64,000 bases of DNA. Origin: Chlorobium chlorochromatii. GTDB taxonomy: Bacteria; Bacteroidota; Chlorobiia; Chlorobiales; Chlorobiaceae. The notes under the pieces are model-generated. The model ran no database searches, was not told the DNA's origin, and worked only from the letters and a program-made list of their open reading frames with translations. Within the stretch, counting starts at the first letter, position 1. Every line of letters starts with the position of its first letter. The position numbers and the translations under genes were made by a program. The stretch is taken from positions 1 through 64,000 of the forward strand of contig DYND01000004.1 in assembly GCA_020721255.1 (NCBI GenBank). Reading direction: 5' to 3'. Below, one piece after another: positions 19,590 to 30,894 of this stretch.

Positions 19590-21680
19590 CTAAGAATACC
19601 GCTTGCTCAGCCCCAGCTTCTCAATCCGTGAATAGAGCGTTTTCGGATGCAACGCAAGCAGCTCAGCAGCTCCGCCGACACCACTGACGCGCCCTTTTGC
19701 ACGGCTGAGTGCGTCGAGAATCAGCTCTCGCTCCATGGCGACAACATCCGCCTCAAAATCACGCATGGTTCTGGCGTGACCGACGGTATGAAGTTCCGAC
19801 GCAGGAGCAGATGGCGAGAGAATGGTTGAAAAATCAAGTGTCGTTCCTTCAGAAACAATAACCGCCTGCTCAATAAGGTGAGCAAGTTCGCGGATATTGC
19901 CCTTCCACTCACGCGCCACAAGCCGTTGCATGTCGATCGCGCGAAAAGCACGAAGCGGCTTACCAAACTCACGTGAACATTTAGCAGCAAAGTGGGTGGC
20001 AAGCATGGCAATATCTTCACGGCGTTCGATGAGCGGTGGAATATCGAGCGGAAAGACGTTGAGCCGAAAAAAGAGATCCTCACGGAACCGTCCTTCGGCA
20101 ACCTCTTTTGCAAGATCGCGATTGGTTGCTGCAATAACACGTACATCCACCTTTATCACCTGCCGTCCGCCAAGGCGCTCAAGCTCGCGCTCCTGAAGCA
20201 CGCGCAGCAGCTTTGCCTGCAACTCCAGCGGCATTTCACCAATTTCATCAAGGAAAATTGTGCCGCCTTCAGCCAACTCGAATTTGCCAATACGCCGTTC
20301 AGTAGCGCCGGTAAAACTCCCCTTTTCGTGGCCAAAAAGCTCGGACTCAATCAGTGGTGCCGGCAAGGTTGCGCAGTTAATCTTGATCAAAGCGCGTTTG
20401 TTGCGGGCTGAAAGATTGTGCAAGGCACGGGCAAAAAGCTCCTTGCCGGTACCGGTTTCGCCCTGAATCAGCACCGTGGCATCAGTTGGCGCAACCTGAC
20501 TGACCCGCCGCAATACCGCCGCAAGCGAGGCGCTGTTGCCGATAATCTCCTCAAAGTTATGAGTGGCCTTGATCTCCTCAATCAGGCAGGTGCGCTCACC
20601 TTCAACCTTACGGCGAAGCTCATCAATCTTTTCAAAGGCGAGATAGTTCTGCAGGGCAAGCGAAAGCTGCGGCACAATCAGGTTAACCGTCGCCTGGTCG
20701 TGCTCATCATAAGAGCCTGAGGTATTGGAGATAAAAAGTCCAGCGCGGCTGCCCGGCGTATCCCAAAGCGCAACCGTAAGCAGGGAACAAACACCAAACG
20801 CCTCCTTGACATAAGCCAGCATACGGTACTCACCGCAAAGTTGACAAAACACTTCACCACTGAAACTACCCGGATGGGTAATCAGCGAAAAACTTTCACG
20901 AGCTATATCTTCAAAATTTTCGATATCAAGCGGCGCGTGGACTTGAGCAAAAACGCCAGCATTGTCACGTCTGAAATTATCGTAAAGACGATAAAAACCA
21001 TCAGCACCCATCACGCGGATGCCAAGAAAGGTGCATGGTACCAGTTTTTCAATCTGCTCACAGACCGCCAAGAGCATCCTATTACGATCTTTGATGGTAA
21101 GCAGGGCATTGTTCACGCCAAGCTGCATGGCGGTCTGTGCTTCACGCTGCCGAAGCTCCTCGTAAGCCAGCGCATTGCTCACGGCAACAGCAACCGGCAA
21201 GGAGAGTGTTGCAAGAAGCTCTTTGTCGCTCTCCAGCCACTCTTTTTCATCCTTCGACACAAAAGAGAGAAACCCAATCACCTTGCCACCGGTGCGCAGC
21301 GGCGAAAGCGCCACCTGCCGCATACCCAGATCGTAGAGCATTTGTGGCAGCAGAACATCGGCGGAATAAAGTTCAAGCGACTTTTCGATACTGATCACAG
21401 AAACCGCAACATCAGCAATATGCGGCTCAATCCATGAGCCGGCAATCGGCCTTTTTTTACGCTCAAAAGTTTCGGGAAGCTGAAAACGGAGCATTTCAAA
21501 AAAAACGTTGCTGTACCGCTTCTCTTTGTCGAACGTGATAATGGCAGCAGAATCAAACTCGAAAACAAGGCGCAGCTTATCGGTAAGCGTTCGGAAAAGC
21601 TCTTGGGGATCGCGAATTGAACCGACTGCATCGCTGATGTACTGCATCAGCTTATGGGTTTCGTGCAGAGATTGTTTCAT
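19590..21680 (-). CDS. Sigma-54-dependent transcriptional activator with N-terminal GAF domains
   Basis: AAA+ motifs GETGTGKELFARALH, ESELFGHEKGSFTGA, GGTIFLDEIGEMPLELQAKLLRVLQE; C-terminal Fis-type HTH. Confidence 0.95.
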   Translation of the reverse strand: MKQSLHETHKLMQYISDAVGSIRDPQELFRTLTDKLRLVFEFDSAAIITFDKEKRYSNVFFEMLRFQLPETFERKKRPIAGSWIEPHIADVAVSVISIEKSLELYSADVLLPQMLYDLGMRQVALSPLRTGGKVIGFLSFVSKDEKEWLESDKELLATLSLPVAVAVSNALAYEELRQREAQTAMQLGVNNALLTIKDRNRMLLAVCEQIEKLVPCTFLGIRVMGADGFYRLYDNFRRDNAGVFAQVHAPLDIENFEDIARESFSLITHPGSFSGEVFCQLCGEYRMLAYVKEAFGVCSLLTVALWDTPGSRAGLFISNTSGSYDEHDQATVNLIVPQLSLALQNYLAFEKIDELRRKVEGERTCLIEEIKATHNFEEIIGNSASLAAVLRRVSQVAPTDATVLIQGETGTGKELFARALHNLSARNKRALIKINCATLPAPLIESELFGHEKGSFTGATERRIGKFELAEGGTIFLDEIGEMPLELQAKLLRVLQERELERLGGRQVIKVDVRVIAATNRDLAKEVAEGRFREDLFFRLNVFPLDIPPLIERREDIAMLATHFAAKCSREFGKPLRAFRAIDMQRLVAREWKGNIRELAHLIEQAVIVSEGTTLDFSTILSPSAPASELHTVGHARTMRDFEADVVAMERELILDALSRAKGRVSGVGGAAELLALHPKTLYSRIEKLGLSKRYS

Positions 21681-21683
21681 AAA

Positions 21684-21733
21684 TTCTGTAAAGTTCAGAA
21701 CATATAGTACAGAAAATTCTGAAATTATCAGAA
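21684..21733. promoter_or_regulatory. Two upstream operator repeats TTCTG-N7-CAGAA
   Basis: TTCTGTAAAGTTCAGAA (21684-21700) and TTCTGAAATTATCAGAA (21717-21733); identical arms and spacing, starts 33 bp apart. Confidence 0.7.
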
Positions 21734-21808
21734 TAACGCAAAGTGAGAGAGATTAAAAAAACCTGATATGGAACGGATTTTATTGATAATCACAACATTT
21801 CAATAATC

Positions 21809-21824
21809 TGGCACACAAATTGCG
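21809..21824 (+). promoter_or_regulatory. Sigma-54 (-24/-12) promoter of the efflux operon
   Basis: TGGCACACAAATTGCG matches TGGCACRN4TTGCW except the last base. Confidence 0.85.
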
Positions 21825-21861
21825 ATATTAATAGCTACGATTGTAATAAAACCATAGCTCC

Positions 21862-23196
21862 ATGATAAACAAGAGTAGAGTAACCAGAACCGTAGCGATT
21901 ACAGCAGTGGCGTTGATGCTTGCGTGGCCATTGCGAAGCAGCGCAACCGAAACACCGGCAGAAACTCCGCTCACCGTTGAACAAGCCATACAGCTTGTGC
22001 GCGAGAACAATCCGGCGCTCAAAGCTGCGGCAGATGAGGTGAAGGCTGCTGACGCTCGAATCACACAACGCCGAAGCGCCTATTTCCCGCAGATCTCCGC
22101 CAGCGCCGGATATACCTGGCTTGACCCAGTCTCCGAGAAGAGTTTCGGAGGAGAAGCTCCAATGCAATTCATGCCGCATGATAATTACGATGCCAAAGTT
22201 ACCGCACAGGCAACGCTGCTCGATTTCGGCAAAAGAGGCAGCAACGTTGCTATTGCGCTGAGCGGCAAAAAAACGGCGGAGCAAGCACTTGAACTGTCGC
22301 GCCGAGAAGCGGCATGGCAAACAGTGCAGCTCTTTTACAGTATTCTGTTTCTCCGCGAAAATCTTCGGGTGGAGGAGAAACAGATTGCCGCACTGAACAA
22401 AGCTTTGGAGTACTCGACCAAACGCTATCAGGCAGGTGCAGCAACTCCGTTTGATCTCTTCTCCACGAAGGTGCGTCTTGCTGATACCCGCAACCGCACA
22501 CTTGATCTTGAGCACGAACTTCGTCGCAGCGAATTAACCCTGCGTCGCCTGACGGGCATTGCCGACAATGCTCCGCTGAAACTTCAGGGCTCATTTGCAG
22601 TGAAGCCGCAAGATGGTCGTGCGGAAACGGGACTTGTAGCCCAGGCATTAGCGCAGCGCCTCGAACTGCAACTCTCCAGAGAGCAAGAAACAGCGGCAAA
22701 ACTGCACCGTTCACTGGCTGGAAAAGAGGGTTTGCCGGTTGTTACCGCAAGCCTCTCTTATGGTGTCAGCAATGGCTATCAGCCTGATATCAATGAAATA
22801 CGCAATAACGTTGCCGCCAACCTGCACCTTGAGATTCCGCTCTTTACCGGTTTCCGCACCAGCGCTGAGCAGCAGGAACGCACTGCTCTGGCACGTGCAG
22901 CAACCCGACGACGGCTTGACGCTGAGCAACTGGCGAAAAGCGACATAGCGGAGACTCTCCATGCACTGCAGACAGCATCGGAGAAGATGAGTACGACGGA
23001 AGTGCAGGTACAACAGGCGGAACTTGCCGCAAAGCACGCACGGGCACGCTACGAAAACGGCATGGCAACTGCGCTCGACCTGCTCGACACCGAAGCCGCT
23101 CTTTCCCAGGCTGAACTTGCCCGCCTGCAAGCCGCTTACGCTTATATGCTGAACACCTATTCACTAAAACGCACAACAGGGGAGATTTTCTGGTAA
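21862..23196 (+). CDS. TolC family outer-membrane efflux protein
   Basis: Signal peptide and paired OEP repeats (VEQAIQLVRENNPALKAAADEVKAADARI; ALDLLDTEAALSQAELARLQAAYAY). Confidence 0.92.
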   Translation: MINKSRVTRTVAITAVALMLAWPLRSSATETPAETPLTVEQAIQLVRENNPALKAAADEVKAADARITQRRSAYFPQISASAGYTWLDPVSEKSFGGEAPMQFMPHDNYDAKVTAQATLLDFGKRGSNVAIALSGKKTAEQALELSRREAAWQTVQLFYSILFLRENLRVEEKQIAALNKALEYSTKRYQAGAATPFDLFSTKVRLADTRNRTLDLEHELRRSELTLRRLTGIADNAPLKLQGSFAVKPQDGRAETGLVAQALAQRLELQLSREQETAAKLHRSLAGKEGLPVVTASLSYGVSNGYQPDINEIRNNVAANLHLEIPLFTGFRTSAEQQERTALARAATRRRLDAEQLAKSDIAETLHALQTASEKMSTTEVQVQQAELAAKHARARYENGMATALDLLDTEAALSQAELARLQAAYAYMLNTYSLKRTTGEIFW

Positions 23197-23197
23197 A

Positions 23198-24238
23198 ATG
23201 GAACAACCTGAATCAACAACAATGGCTGAAAAAAACACTTCTCCACAAGAACCGGCAAAAGCTTCAAATCCTTTGCGCATCGTCATTATCGGCACTCTGC
23301 TTGCCATCGCCCTGATCTGGGGAGGCAGCAAAGTCTATCACTCACTCCTCTATGTAGAGACGGATAACGCACAGATTGAGGGAGATATTTATCCTGTGAT
23401 TTCGCGAGTTCCGGGCAAAGTAGCAGAGGTGCTTGCAAGCGACAACCAGCCAGTCAACAAAGGTGATACACTCATCCTGCTCGATGCGACTGATTACGAA
23501 GTGCGCCGCGACATTGCCGCTGCCGAGCTGCTCAGCGCACAGGCAGAAGTAAAAGCTGTCACGGAGCAGGCACATGCTGCACAAGCCTCCGCAAGCGCCG
23601 CAGAAGCCACAAGCCGCAAACAGCAAGCCGACCTCGCCCGCAACAACAATCTCCGTCAACAGGAGGTCATTTCACAAGCAGAGTTCGACGCCGTCAAAGC
23701 GGGAGCACAAGCAGCATCAGCCCAGTATGCCAGTGCCGGTAATAACTATCAGGCAGCGCTTGCCGAGATACCCCTGAAAATGGCTGAGATAAAAAAGTGT
23801 GAGGCCAAGCTGCGCGAAGCTGAACTGCAATTATCGTACACCTCCATTACAGCTCCAGCCTCTGGTCAAGTGTCAAAAAAAAATGTGCAGACGGGTCAGT
23901 ACGTCTCGCCGGGCCAACAGTTGATTGCGCTGGTCGGCAGCAAAGATCTCTGGATTGTCGCCAACTTCAAGGAAACGCAGCTTGAGAAAATCATTGTCGG
24001 AGAGCCGGTTATTATCAAAGTAGATGCCTATCCTGGCAAAGAGTTCAAAGGCAAAGTTGAATCACTCTCCTCTGGCACCGGCGCAAAATTTGCCATGCTT
24101 CCTCCCGACAACGCCAGCGGAAACTTCATCAAGGTGACACAGCGCATTCCGGTAAAAATTCTCTTTACTGAAAAGCCAGACAAGCACCATCCGCTTGCCG
24201 CAGGGATGAACGTCACCGTTGAAGTGAAGGCAAAATGA
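23198..24238 (+). CDS. HlyD/EmrA family efflux periplasmic adaptor
   Basis: YVETDNAQIEGDIYPVISRVPGKVAEVLASDNQPVNKGDTLILLD; TSITAPASGQVSKKNVQTGQYVSPGQ. Confidence 0.93.
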   Translation: MEQPESTTMAEKNTSPQEPAKASNPLRIVIIGTLLAIALIWGGSKVYHSLLYVETDNAQIEGDIYPVISRVPGKVAEVLASDNQPVNKGDTLILLDATDYEVRRDIAAAELLSAQAEVKAVTEQAHAAQASASAAEATSRKQQADLARNNNLRQQEVISQAEFDAVKAGAQAASAQYASAGNNYQAALAEIPLKMAEIKKCEAKLREAELQLSYTSITAPASGQVSKKNVQTGQYVSPGQQLIALVGSKDLWIVANFKETQLEKIIVGEPVIIKVDAYPGKEFKGKVESLSSGTGAKFAMLPPDNASGNFIKVTQRIPVKILFTEKPDKHHPLAAGMNVTVEVKAK

Positions 24239-24273: not shown

Positions 24274-25893
24274 ATGGCAGAGTCACAACAACAGAATGGC
24301 ACAGCGGTAGCTGCAATGCTGCCAAACCCAGCCCATCATTACGAAACCGGTGCTCGCAAAGTCATCATCACACTGACCGTAATTGTGGCCGCAATGCTGG
24401 AGCTGATCGACACCACTATTGTGAACGTTGCCCTGACCCAGATCAGCGGCAACCTCGGTGCCAGCATTGAGGATGTCGCCTGGGTGGTCACCAGCTACGC
24501 TATCGCCAACGTCATCGTCATTCCGCTCTCCGGCTTTCTCGGTAACTTGCTCGGACGCCGCAACTACTACATCGGCTCGATTCTGCTTTTTACTGCTGCA
24601 TCGCTGCTCTGCGGCATCTCCACCGACATCTGGACACTGGTCTTCTTCCGCTTCCTGCAAGGCATCGGTGGCGGAGCGCTGCTGCCGACATCACAGGCGA
24701 TTCTCTACGAAACATTCAAGCCGGAAGAGCGAGGCACCGCCACCGGCATTTTCTCGATGGGACTTGTGCTCGGCCCAACCTTTGGCCCTCTGCTTGGCGG
24801 TTATCTTGTGGACTATTTCTCATGGGAGTGGTGCTTTTTCGTCAACATACCAGTCGGGCTGCTTGCTTCCTGGTCTGCCTTCACCTTTCTCAAGGAACCG
24901 AAAGTTCAGCACTCTGTCTCAAAAATTGACTGGACGGGGATCGGACTTCTGGCGGTCGGTATCGGTGCATTGCAATTCATTCTTGAAAAGGGAGAGTCAA
25001 AAGACTGGTTTGAAACTCCCTATATCACTTGGTTCACAATCATCGCCGTATTATCGCTCGCAGCCTTTGTCTGGTGGGAACTGCACACCGAAGAGCCTGC
25101 CGTTGATCTGCGCGTGCTGACTCGAAGCCGTAATCTGCCAATTGCCGCTGTACTTACTTTTGTCGTAGGATTTGGTCTCTACGGATCACTCTTTGTCTTT
25201 CCGGTGTTTGTGCAGCGCCTGCTTGGATTTACTGCCGTACTGACCGGACTGGTGCTCTTTCCCAGCGCCATGGTGACAGGCATCATCTCCATGCCGCTCG
25301 GCATGGCGCTTCAGAAAGGCGTTTCACCAAAAAAGCTGATGACCGTTGGTATGATTGCATTCATTACCTTCTGCTGGATGCTTGGTCAACAGACCATGCA
25401 GTCAGGCGCTGAAAATTTCTTCTGGATACTCCTGCTTCGCGGTGTCGCTCTCGGATTTATCTTCATTCCCGTCACCATGCTTGCCGTAGCGGGATTGCAC
25501 GGCAAGGACATTGGGCAGGCGACGGGGCTTAACAACATGGTGCGCCAGCTCGGTGGTTCATTCGGCATAGCCATAACCAACACCCACATTGTCAAACGAG
25601 TTGCGGAACACCGCATTGAGCTGCTCAGCCATCTCTCCCCCTACGATCCGGCAGCAATCGCTCGGCTTGATGCGATAAAGCAGACCGCGACCATGAAAAG
25701 CGGGCTCTCACCTGCTGGCGCAGAGCTTGCCGCGCTGCATTCGCTTGAAGGTACCGTGACCGCCCAAAGCCACCATCTCGCCTACATGGACGCCTTTATG
25801 CTTGTCGCACTGCTGTTTGCCATCGCGTTGCCGCTGCTCTTTTTTATCAAGATTAACAAAGCGGAGAAGGCGGATTTGTCGGGCGCGCATTGA
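24274..25893 (+). CDS. DHA2 family multidrug efflux MFS transporter (EmrB/QacA type)
   Basis: ELIDTTIVNVALTQISGNLG, GRRNYYIGS, QGIGGGALLPTSQAIL; 14-TM size. Confidence 0.94.
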   Translation: MAESQQQNGTAVAAMLPNPAHHYETGARKVIITLTVIVAAMLELIDTTIVNVALTQISGNLGASIEDVAWVVTSYAIANVIVIPLSGFLGNLLGRRNYYIGSILLFTAASLLCGISTDIWTLVFFRFLQGIGGGALLPTSQAILYETFKPEERGTATGIFSMGLVLGPTFGPLLGGYLVDYFSWEWCFFVNIPVGLLASWSAFTFLKEPKVQHSVSKIDWTGIGLLAVGIGALQFILEKGESKDWFETPYITWFTIIAVLSLAAFVWWELHTEEPAVDLRVLTRSRNLPIAAVLTFVVGFGLYGSLFVFPVFVQRLLGFTAVLTGLVLFPSAMVTGIISMPLGMALQKGVSPKKLMTVGMIAFITFCWMLGQQTMQSGAENFFWILLLRGVALGFIFIPVTMLAVAGLHGKDIGQATGLNNMVRQLGGSFGIAITNTHIVKRVAEHRIELLSHLSPYDPAAIARLDAIKQTATMKSGLSPAGAELAALHSLEGTVTAQSHHLAYMDAFMLVALLFAIALPLLFFIKINKAEKADLSGAH

Positions 25894-26960: not shown

Positions 26961-29900
26961 CTAAATCCGCCCACCCACACCTTTAAACTTTTCAACAAAA
27001 GCGGCAATTTTTTGAAAAACACTCTGTTTTTTTGTCAGGTATTGCGGGTTTAACGGGCTCATTTTAGGAAGAATGGTATTGAGCTCAGTGCCATTGTCAC
27101 TGGCAAATTCTCGCTTCAGCGAAGTTGAGATATAACGCTTGGCAGCATCTGTATTCAAGTGCTCAGAGCTGATAAGCGCCTCTGCCTCGCGTTGCTGCTC
27201 GGCTTGCGCAAAGGTGAAAAAGGTATCAATAACAGTGGCTTTATCATTAATTGTGTCAAAATCGGTGTGATTGATAAAATCCACCAAGAGACTCTCCTTC
27301 GCACGGTTGCCAAGGCTGGCACGAATCACCCGACGCACATCTTCAACCAGTGCTCCTTTGTCTTTAACCTTTTTATTGTTCTCAAAAATCAATTCCAGAA
27401 TGTAGTCCAGGTTGATCTCTTGTGATTTGAGCAGATCTATCTCAAAAACCACGTCATCCCAATCAATGGAGGATTTCTCTTTGTCGGAAACTGCTTTTTC
27501 ACGGCGAAGCCAATCGCGAATATCGTTATAGGTTGAGCGGTAATCCTGTATTGTACGTGCAGTTGGCATCTTAATCGCTTGCAGCACTTTAAGCTCTTCG
27601 TCGCTTACATAATGATGGGCTTTGAATGCCTCAACAGCCTCTGCGTCGTCCATATTGATGCTTTGCAAGGTTTTCAGGCTGGCAAATTCATCGTAGTTTT
27701 GCAGCACGTTCTCTACGCGCAAATATTCGCCAAATAATTTTGCGAAGGCCTTTTTATCGGACTCTTTAACAATCTCATCAGGGTTGGGGAAGCGTTGCTG
27801 TAATTCCGTTACCACCTCCCTATAGCCCCGTCGGGCTTCACCGGTGACCACATCGGTAAAACCTTCCATGTATTCCTTATAACTCTTTTCCAGCACCACA
27901 TTTTTGGTGTTGGTATCACCAAATAGCGTAATGGCATCGATGGTGGCTTGTTCTAAATCCCGGAAGGTGACGATATTGCCAAAGGTCTTGGTTGCATCAT
28001 AAATACGATTGGTACGCGAATAGGCCTGCATCAACCCGTGATAGCGCAGGTTTTTATCAACAAACAAGGTGCTCAACGTCGGCGCATCAAAACCGGTTAA
28101 AAACATGCCAACAACAATCAGCAAATCTATTTCCTGGCTTTTGACGCGCTGGGCAAGGTCGCGGTAATAGTTTTGAAAGCCATTGCTATCCAGGCCAAAT
28201 CTGATTTTAAAGGCTGCGTTATAGTCAGCAATAGCCGCGCCTAAAAACTCTTTGGCGCTGCTGTTCATGGCGGATACATCAAAGCTTTCGTCCAGAATCT
28301 CGCCCACGGCATCTTGCTCTTCATTGGCCGCAAACGAGAAGATGGTGGCAACCATCAGTGGCTTATCAGTCTCTTTCTGCAATTGCTTGAACGACTCATA
28401 ATACAGCTTGGCGGCATCCACACTGCTCACCGCAAACATGGCATTAAAGCCTTTGGCACCGGCTTGCAGACGATGGGTTTTCTGCCGGAAGTTATTCAGA
28501 ATGTACTTGGATATTTCCCGGATTCGGTCGGGGTGTAACAAGGCTTGCTTGTTTTCTGCCGCGTTGAGTTTTTTTTCATCCTGTTCAGTTTCAATCGCCT
28601 TAAACTGAGGGCGCACATTGTTATAGTCCACCTTGAACTTCAACACTTTTTCATCGCGAATGGCATCGGTAATCACATAAGAGTGCAATTCACGACCAAA
28701 CACACTGGCAGTGGTCTCAGCCCCCAAAGCGTTTTGCGGAAAGATCGGTGTGCCAGTAAAACCAAACTGATAAAACCTTTTAAATTTTTTCTTCAGGTTT
28801 TTCTGTGCCTCACCAAATTGGCTGCGGTGCGCCTCATCAAAAATAAACACCACTTGCTTGCTGTAAACAGGCAAGTCTCCTTCACTTTTCATCAGGTGGT
28901 TGAGCTTCTGGATGGTGGTGACAATGATTTTGTTGTCGTCCTTATCCAGGTTGCGCTTGAGTCCGGCGGTGCTGTCAGAGCCATTGACGCTATCCGGCGA
29001 AAAGCGCTGGTATTCCTTCATGGTCTGGTAATCCAGATCTTTACGATCCACCACGAAAAATACCTTGTCGATAAACTCCAGCTCAGTCGCCAAACGCGCC
29101 GCTTTAAAGCTGGTTAAGGTTTTACCCGAACCGGTGGTGTGCCAAATGAAGCCGCCACTTTCGGGCTTGCTCCATTTTTTTGATTGATACGAGCTCTTAA
29201 TCTTCCATAAAATGCGCTCGGTAGCAGCAATCTGGTAAGGGCGCATCACCAGTAGCGTGTTGCTGACATCAAATACCGAATAATGCAGCAGCACATTGAG
29301 CAGGGTGTTTTTCTGGAAGAAGGTGGCGGTAAAGTCTTTCAGGTCTTTAATCAGGCTGTTATCGGCTTTCGCCCAATTCATGGTGAAATCAAAACTGTTT
29401 TTGTTGCGCTGAGTGGTGTTGGCAAAATAACGGCTATCGGTGCCATTGGAGATCACAAACAGTTGCAAATATTTATACAGCGACTGTGCACTATTAAGGC
29501 TCTCTTTGCTGTAACGGTGCACCTGATTAAAGGCTTCACGAATGGCCACGCCGCGCTTTTTCAGCTCAATCTGCACCAGCGGCAAACCATTGACCAGCAC
29601 CGTCACATCGTAGCGATTAGCATGCGCTCCGGCTTGTTCAAACTGCTTGATCACCTGCACCTTATTGCGGGCAATGTTCTTTTTGTCTAACAGGTAAATA
29701 TTCTTAATTCGACCATCGTCAAACACAAAATCATGAATATAGTCATCATGAATTTTGCGGGTTTTGTCGACAATGCTATCGCTTGGTTTATCCAGCCAAG
29801 TCTCCACAAATCGCAGCCACTCACCGTCGGAAAACTGCATGTTATTCAGCGATTGCAACTGCTCGCGTGCATTGGCCAGCAGCTTCTCGGGCGAGTTTAA

Positions 29901-30062
29901 ACCTTGGGCATATTCATACCCCTGATTCTGCAAATCCTGAATGAATTCCCGCTCCAAATCATATTCACTTTGGTAGCTTTCATTAACCTGCCATTCCTTG
30001 GTGTATTTATCCAGAACAATAAAGTTGTTCGATTCTGCGATGGACGTGGTGTAGCTAATCAT
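26961..30062 (-). CDS. hsdR: Type I restriction endonuclease subunit R
   Basis: [18 protein letters not shown] Walker [18 protein letters not shown] box, [12 protein letters not shown] at 30062 ([10 protein letters not shown]) overlaps the upstream gene by 8 nt. Confidence 0.95.
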
Positions 30063-30894
30063 TCTTTTTGCCTTTGTTTGATAACTGCAATTGCCTGGCG
30101 TTTTGTGCGCTGACAACCTTTTTACCCGTTTCTGCTTCCAATTTCAGTTTAGCTTCTTTGGCAACACCGCCACCACGTTTTGCCACATCCTCATGTTCTG
30201 CAAACGACTGAGGGTTAACGACTTCTGAAATCTCTTTGGTGGACAACTCTGCCAGCATATTCATCACCAATTCTTTATTGGTCATGTTGTCACGCAGGTT
30301 CTCCTTTTTAAGCCCTTTGTATTGCTTGTATTCTTTGGCGGTTTTTCCTGCCCACGTTTTGTAAATGACATCGGTTAAAAAGGCGAATTCGCCGCCCTCC
30401 TGCAAGCCGTGCTTCTTCCACTCGTCGGTTAATTCTTTGCGGATCTCTATGCTTTTTAGCCGTTGGTTGATCCAGTTGTCTGTGTAACCCAGGCGCTTGT
30501 AATCCAGCATGGCCTGTTCTATGGATAACTCAGGGTCTTGCAGTTGCTCCAAGCGTTGATTTGCCACCTCGGCCAACCACAGTTTAAAAGGCTCTGCTTT
30601 TTTAGAGGGGATAGACTGAATAATCCGGAATAACTGCTGGTTGGTCGCTGCCAGCGTCTTTCTCAATTTGCCCGTGGCAGACTGCATGGCTACCTGGGGA
30701 CAATTTGTCCCTACGTACTCGCCTAATTGTTCGTCCCTTTTGCGCAGCTTCTTTAGATAATCTGTGGGGTTCGCACTGTCTGTGAGCGCAGCAACCACAT
30801 CAACAACAGAAAAAAACCACTCTTCAAGTTCAGCATCCCAATGGCTACGGATGTGCACCGATTCAAACAACTGGAGTTTGGTGTCAGTTTGCAT
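30055..30894 (-). CDS. DinD/BRO-N domain (phage antirepressor-like) protein, copy 1
   Basis: [19 protein letters not shown] core; [34 protein letters not shown] shared with the copy at 32067-32957. Confidence 0.8.

Follow-up and report, generated by a model that had tools for sequence, protein, structure and literature searches.

A probable sigma-54 switch between a GAF-AAA+ activator and a tolC-emrA-emrB export operon in green sulfur bacteria

Multidrug pumps are usually described under the control of local repressors or general regulators. The emrAB genes of E. coli are under the MarR-type repressor EmrR, not sigma-54. NorR is a one-component GAF sensor with several short dyads located 5' of a -24/-12 element in a divergent arrangement, a layout like that of the locus described here. 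The formate hydrogenlyase activator FhlA has the domain order GAF-GAF-AAA+-Fis, as does the activator of this locus, and an operator unlike the one reported below. In the titles and abstracts of the open-licence literature on sigma-54 control of efflux or EmrAB, sigma-54 in Chlorobi, and FhlA-type efflux activators, we found no description of the system presented here.

We analyzed a 64-kb stretch of DNA from Chlorobium chlorochromatii (hereafter, the window), in which an intergenic region at 21681-21861 is flanked by a leftward gene for a 696-aa activator on one side and by rightward tolC-emrA-emrB on the other. The sequence-only reading had proposed a sigma-54 switch between the divergent GAF-AAA+ activator and the pump genes, a proposal that is now supported by evidence that is comparative and sequence-based throughout. 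We consider it very probable that this region constitutes a dedicated sigma-54 switch, in which a GAF-sensing activator, a paired operator, and a -24/-12 element would drive tolC-emrA-emrB.

The activator gene (19590-21680, minus strand) encodes GAF1, a GAF2-like region, an AAA+ domain, and a Fis-type helix-turn-helix (HTH), in that order. Pfam matches were obtained for Sigma54_activat (PF00158, 1.3e-73), GAF (PF01590, 3e-11), and the C-terminal HTH (HTH_8, 3e-5; 24.1 bits, above the cut-off of 22). The Sigma54_activat AAA+ domain carries a GAFTGA-type loop, as in bacterial enhancer-binding proteins of the NtrC class. This loop reads GSFTGA (residues 454-459; 20304-20321, minus strand) and is invariant among 15 aligned orthologues; according to two regulon papers, the variant is compatible with activation (PMC4641369, PMC6615313).

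GAF1 spans residues 24-167 (21180-21611, minus strand) and was matched by fold search to PDB 3K2N, a sigma-54-dependent transcriptional regulator domain from C. tepidum TLS, with 62% identity and a TM-score of 0.91 on the target. A role for the 3K2N domain was not found in the literature searched. The AlphaFold model of the whole activator, whose AAA+ part is of low confidence, shows a second GAF-like fold at approximately residues 199-345, and the tandem GAF arrangement of the model resembles phosphodiesterase and phytochrome structures carrying GAF domains. We assign GAF2 tentatively from this predicted fold, its support by sequence being weak.

The operator, or upstream activating sequence (UAS), occupies 21684-21733 and adjoins the activator start codon at 21680. 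It contains two exact TTCTG-N7-CAGAA dyads, dyad A (TTCTGTAAAGTTCAGAA, 21684-21700) and dyad B (TTCTGAAATTATCAGAA, 21717-21733). The sequence-only reading had placed two identical-arm dyads 33 bp apart and roughly 90-125 bp before the -24 box. Their coordinates proved exact; measured to the -24 GG, the distances from their starts are 126 and 93 bp. The exact pattern occurs nowhere else in the window. Two identical-arm 5+5 inverted repeats arose in only 25 of 3000 simulated intergenic regions of the same dinucleotide make-up. The arrangement as a whole, which recurs in Chlorobiaceae, is not due to chance.

A fifth arm, CAGAA at 21710-21714, had been overlooked previously. It pairs with the left arm of dyad B to form an inner palindrome, CAGAA-AA-TTCTG (21710-21721); a partner at the dyad spacing would instead coincide with the right arm of dyad A. 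Across 58 loci, the near-invariant operator positions are TTC 1-3 and GAA 15-17, the outer triplets of dyad A, together with GAA 29-31, TTC 34-36, and GAA 48-50. The inner-arm GAA (21712-21714) varies no more than the other four arms do, with its three positions kept in 57, 58, and 57 of the 58 loci. No indels were found in the operator among these loci, and its length is 50 bp throughout 18 aligned genomes. In this alignment, mean column identity is 81% for the operator and 85% for the -24/-12 element, compared with 50% for the spacer between them. A candidate sigma-A promoter for the activator was weighed by eye within the operator of some relatives; outer lineages lack it, and we do not claim it.

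The sigma-54 -24/-12 element, TGGCACACAAATTGC (21809-21823, plus strand), was recognized by sequence match. Within TGGCACACAAATTGCG (21809-21824), the GG at 21810-21811 and the GC at 21822-21823 are separated by 10 bp. The element reads TGGCAC-N5-TTGC, has the spacing of -24/-12 elements, and is conserved among relatives. From -24/-12 promoter geometry, transcription is predicted to start at 21835 (plus strand), 12 bp 3' of the -12 GC. G015, G007, and C. ferrooxidans (L012, L013, and L102) have a leader from the -12 to tolC that exceeds the usual length by about 100 nt. The sigma-54 gene rpoN was found in 29 of the 31 genomes searched but not in the assembly that contains the window, whose completeness is 66%.

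The operator and the promoter are separated by a putative looping spacer of 75 bp (21734-21808); relatives differ in its length by close to whole helical turns. Spacer lengths from the operator to the -24 fall into classes of 42/43, 52, 65, 72-76, and 83-88 bp, with no lengths between the clusters, and of the periods tried, 10.5-11 bp gave the best fit. Five changes of length class map to the activator tree, each of approximately whole helical turns, as expected of face-dependent looping. The summed deviation from whole turns over these five changes gives P = 0.0065 (P = 0.014 if the two short forms are counted once, and P = 0.003 with the second family described below added as a sixth event), and because the count rests on few events, a quick tree, and deviations read off by hand, the phasing argues well for face-dependent contact without being conclusive.

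Downstream lie the genes for a TolC-like outer-membrane channel (21862-23196), an EmrA-like periplasmic adaptor (23198-24238), and an EmrB-type DHA2-family MFS exporter (24274-25893), all on the plus strand. EmrB scores 414 bits with TIGR00711, well above the cut-off of 230.2, which identifies it as a DHA2/EmrB permease. TIGR00998 is the best family for the adaptor (6.2e-74), but its 248.9 bits fall below the curated cut-off of 390.8, and we term it EmrA-like. The channel matches PF02321 (6.7e-61) and scores 145.8 bits with TIGR01844, below the cut-off of 225.15. Beyond the 3' end of the pump operon, the minus strand carries an HsdR gene (type I restriction; 26961-30116).

Only 1 bp separates tolC from emrA in the window (23196-23198). 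In most relatives, including the nearest one (L072), a universal stress protein gene (usp; approximately 142 aa, Pfam Usp 6.6e-29) sits between them. The activator tree needs about five changes in the presence of usp. The ancestral operon order is tolC-usp-emrA-emrB, and usp was lost in about five lineages, that of the window among them; other Usp proteins in the genome of the window share only 28-39% identity. In G006 (L039, L080), the emrB match is split into two pieces that overlap, which suggests a frameshift; L093, with an identical activator, shows a single full emrB match.

The locus is widely conserved in Chlorobiaceae. Of 18 congeners drawn, 17 have an orthologue of the activator, with 58-86% identity, and one scan of named genomes recovered 63 Chlorobiaceae loci, including those of Chlorobium ferrooxidans and Chlorobaculum thiosulfatiphilum. 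The genes tolC, emrA, and emrB follow in nearly all loci with enough flanking sequence, and the operator and -24/-12 layout is found at nearly every orthologous locus. The exceptions to pump synteny are divergent paralogous activators that face a usp gene, some of them with tolC: L118 and L128 have tolC and usp, with emrA and emrB not found, and in L129, L130, and L133 the activator faces usp and the pump was not found.

The activator is also present in 29 of 81 genomes of a second family of the same phylum (f27). At each of the 25 second-family loci that were read, tolC is divergent from the activator and a TGGCAY element is present, in most cases as TGGCAC-N5-TTNGG or a close variant, with GG or GT at the -12 compared with GC in the window. 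By a regular-expression scan, about half of these loci have two dyads at a distance of 31-33 bp, with one dyad in nearly all of the remainder, and none in L221; the scan undercounts, since a second, imperfect dyad is visible by eye in G100, for which it returned one. The half-site beside these orthologous activators is similar (TTCCT/TTCTG), the operator-to-promoter gap is 107-109 bp where measured, and tolC-usp-emrA-emrB is the operon of the three genomes that were read out completely. Each element of the predicted switch has the support of phylogenetic footprinting, with the activator, the -24/-12, the paired operator, and the pump kept together in Chlorobiaceae and the second family. The little-changed layout suggests a long-standing regulatory module.

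More distant homologues of the activator occur in two further families, where they face other exporters that are likewise accompanied by an adaptor and a TolC-like channel: an AcrB-type RND pump in G175 (L168) and an ABC-2 exporter in G021 (L053). A bolder reading, which we hold to be a substantial possibility though somewhat less likely than not, is that these proteins form a GAF-GAF sigma-54 activator family not described before, which would serve tripartite exporters of the MFS, RND, and ABC classes and sense the exported compounds, with a rigid five-arm operator and a helically phased loop conserved across families of the phylum.

With respect to the scope of regulation, most members of the genus have a single exact match to the operator pattern in their genome, namely at this locus. 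A search of the window's own genome for further TTCTG-N7-CAGAA sites, as had been suggested, returned three further exact sites, all of which lack a sigma-54 element in the approximately 300 bp around them. Exact UAS-like sites at L179, L188, and L198 were rejected, a sigma-54 element not being found nearby. Given the single occurrence in most of the genus and the lack of a sigma-54 element at the other dyads in this genome, the activator looks to be a local regulator.

The sequences themselves show the parts, their conservation, and the phased spacer. In the mechanism that we propose from them, the GAF-GAF-AAA+-Fis protein would bind the 50-bp operator as dimers, and its GAF sensors would respond to a signal that is probably a small molecule, either toxic or related to stress. 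Assembly of the AAA+ domains would follow, and the DNA would loop between operator and promoter. This would allow the GSFTGA loop to contact sigma-54 on the polymerase waiting at the -24/-12, and ATP hydrolysis would open the promoter. The predicted output is transcription of the tolC-emrA-emrB export pump, together with the universal stress protein in most relatives. As the operator lies directly upstream of the activator gene, the activator may also regulate its own expression.

The same position, with the operator abutting the activator start codon, could point to autoregulation only, for example through an autorepressor site, with tolC-emrAB transcribed from a sigma-70 promoter and the -24/-12 match being incidental. 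A sigma-70-like site for tolC does exist at 21763-21790, matching 9 of 12 positions; it is not supported as the tolC promoter. It falls within the poorly conserved spacer, whereas the -24/-12 element is conserved like the operator, and L076 and L077 have lost or lack 31-33 bp of the spacer that holds it. Moreover, the region contains six promoter-like matches against 3.1 (sd 1.8) expected from shuffles, a number near expectation, and a phased spacer would be unexpected if operator and promoter did not interact. We regard this explanation as highly improbable. Still less probable is that the conserved arms are bound by another protein, such as a nucleoid protein or another regulator, and not by the adjacent activator. 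The inner arm has no explained function and binding of the activator to the operator is predicted from sequence, which would leave room for such a protein, but the recurrence of the half-site beside orthologous activators in the second family, and the restriction of the exact pattern to this locus in most congeners, both argue for the activator.

The dedicated sigma-54 switch is our preferred reading. Points against it are that rpoN was not found in the incomplete assembly of the window, that the -12 of the second family departs from GC, that the spacer changes are few, and that the AAA+ model and the sequence support for GAF2 are weak. A further alternative is compatible with this reading, as it concerns only the physiological label. 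Here, the switch would be real but its signal would be general stress or redox state, and the exported compound a native metabolite, making "drug efflux" a misnomer. The membership of usp in the ancestral operon, the paralogous activators that face usp in L129, L130, and L133, and the scores of EmrA and TolC below the NCBIfam cut-offs are in line with this possibility. On the other side, EmrB exceeds the cut-off for DHA2 efflux permeases, and the distant homologues beside AcrB-type and ABC tripartite exporters are consistent with a response to exported compounds. We consider the stress-related label a substantial possibility, though not the favored one.

The pump described here appears to be under a tightly off, ATP-dependent sigma-54 switch whose conservation extends through the green sulfur bacteria to the second family. 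The locus links a universal stress protein with efflux, and its spacer, changing by near-whole turns, offers a natural test case for face-of-helix looping. Among known structures, PDB 3K2N matches GAF1 but was solved as an isolated domain, which here gains a likely role. Among known regulators, FhlA is the best NCBIfam match of the activator and similar in size (692 model positions compared with 696 aa), yet the score of 402.8 bits, against a cut-off of 830 for NF011958, indicates that the activator is not FhlA; its neighbors here are pump genes, not hydrogenlyase genes. The score with the NorR model NF003451, 365.8 bits, is likewise below the cut-off (476), and the locus differs from that system in its TTCTG/CAGAA arms, its two dyads with an inner arm, and its rigid 50-bp block. 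The operon resembles EmrAB-TolC in combining an MFS permease above the EmrB cut-off with an adaptor and an outer-membrane channel, and differs from that of E. coli in the usp gene of its ancestral form.
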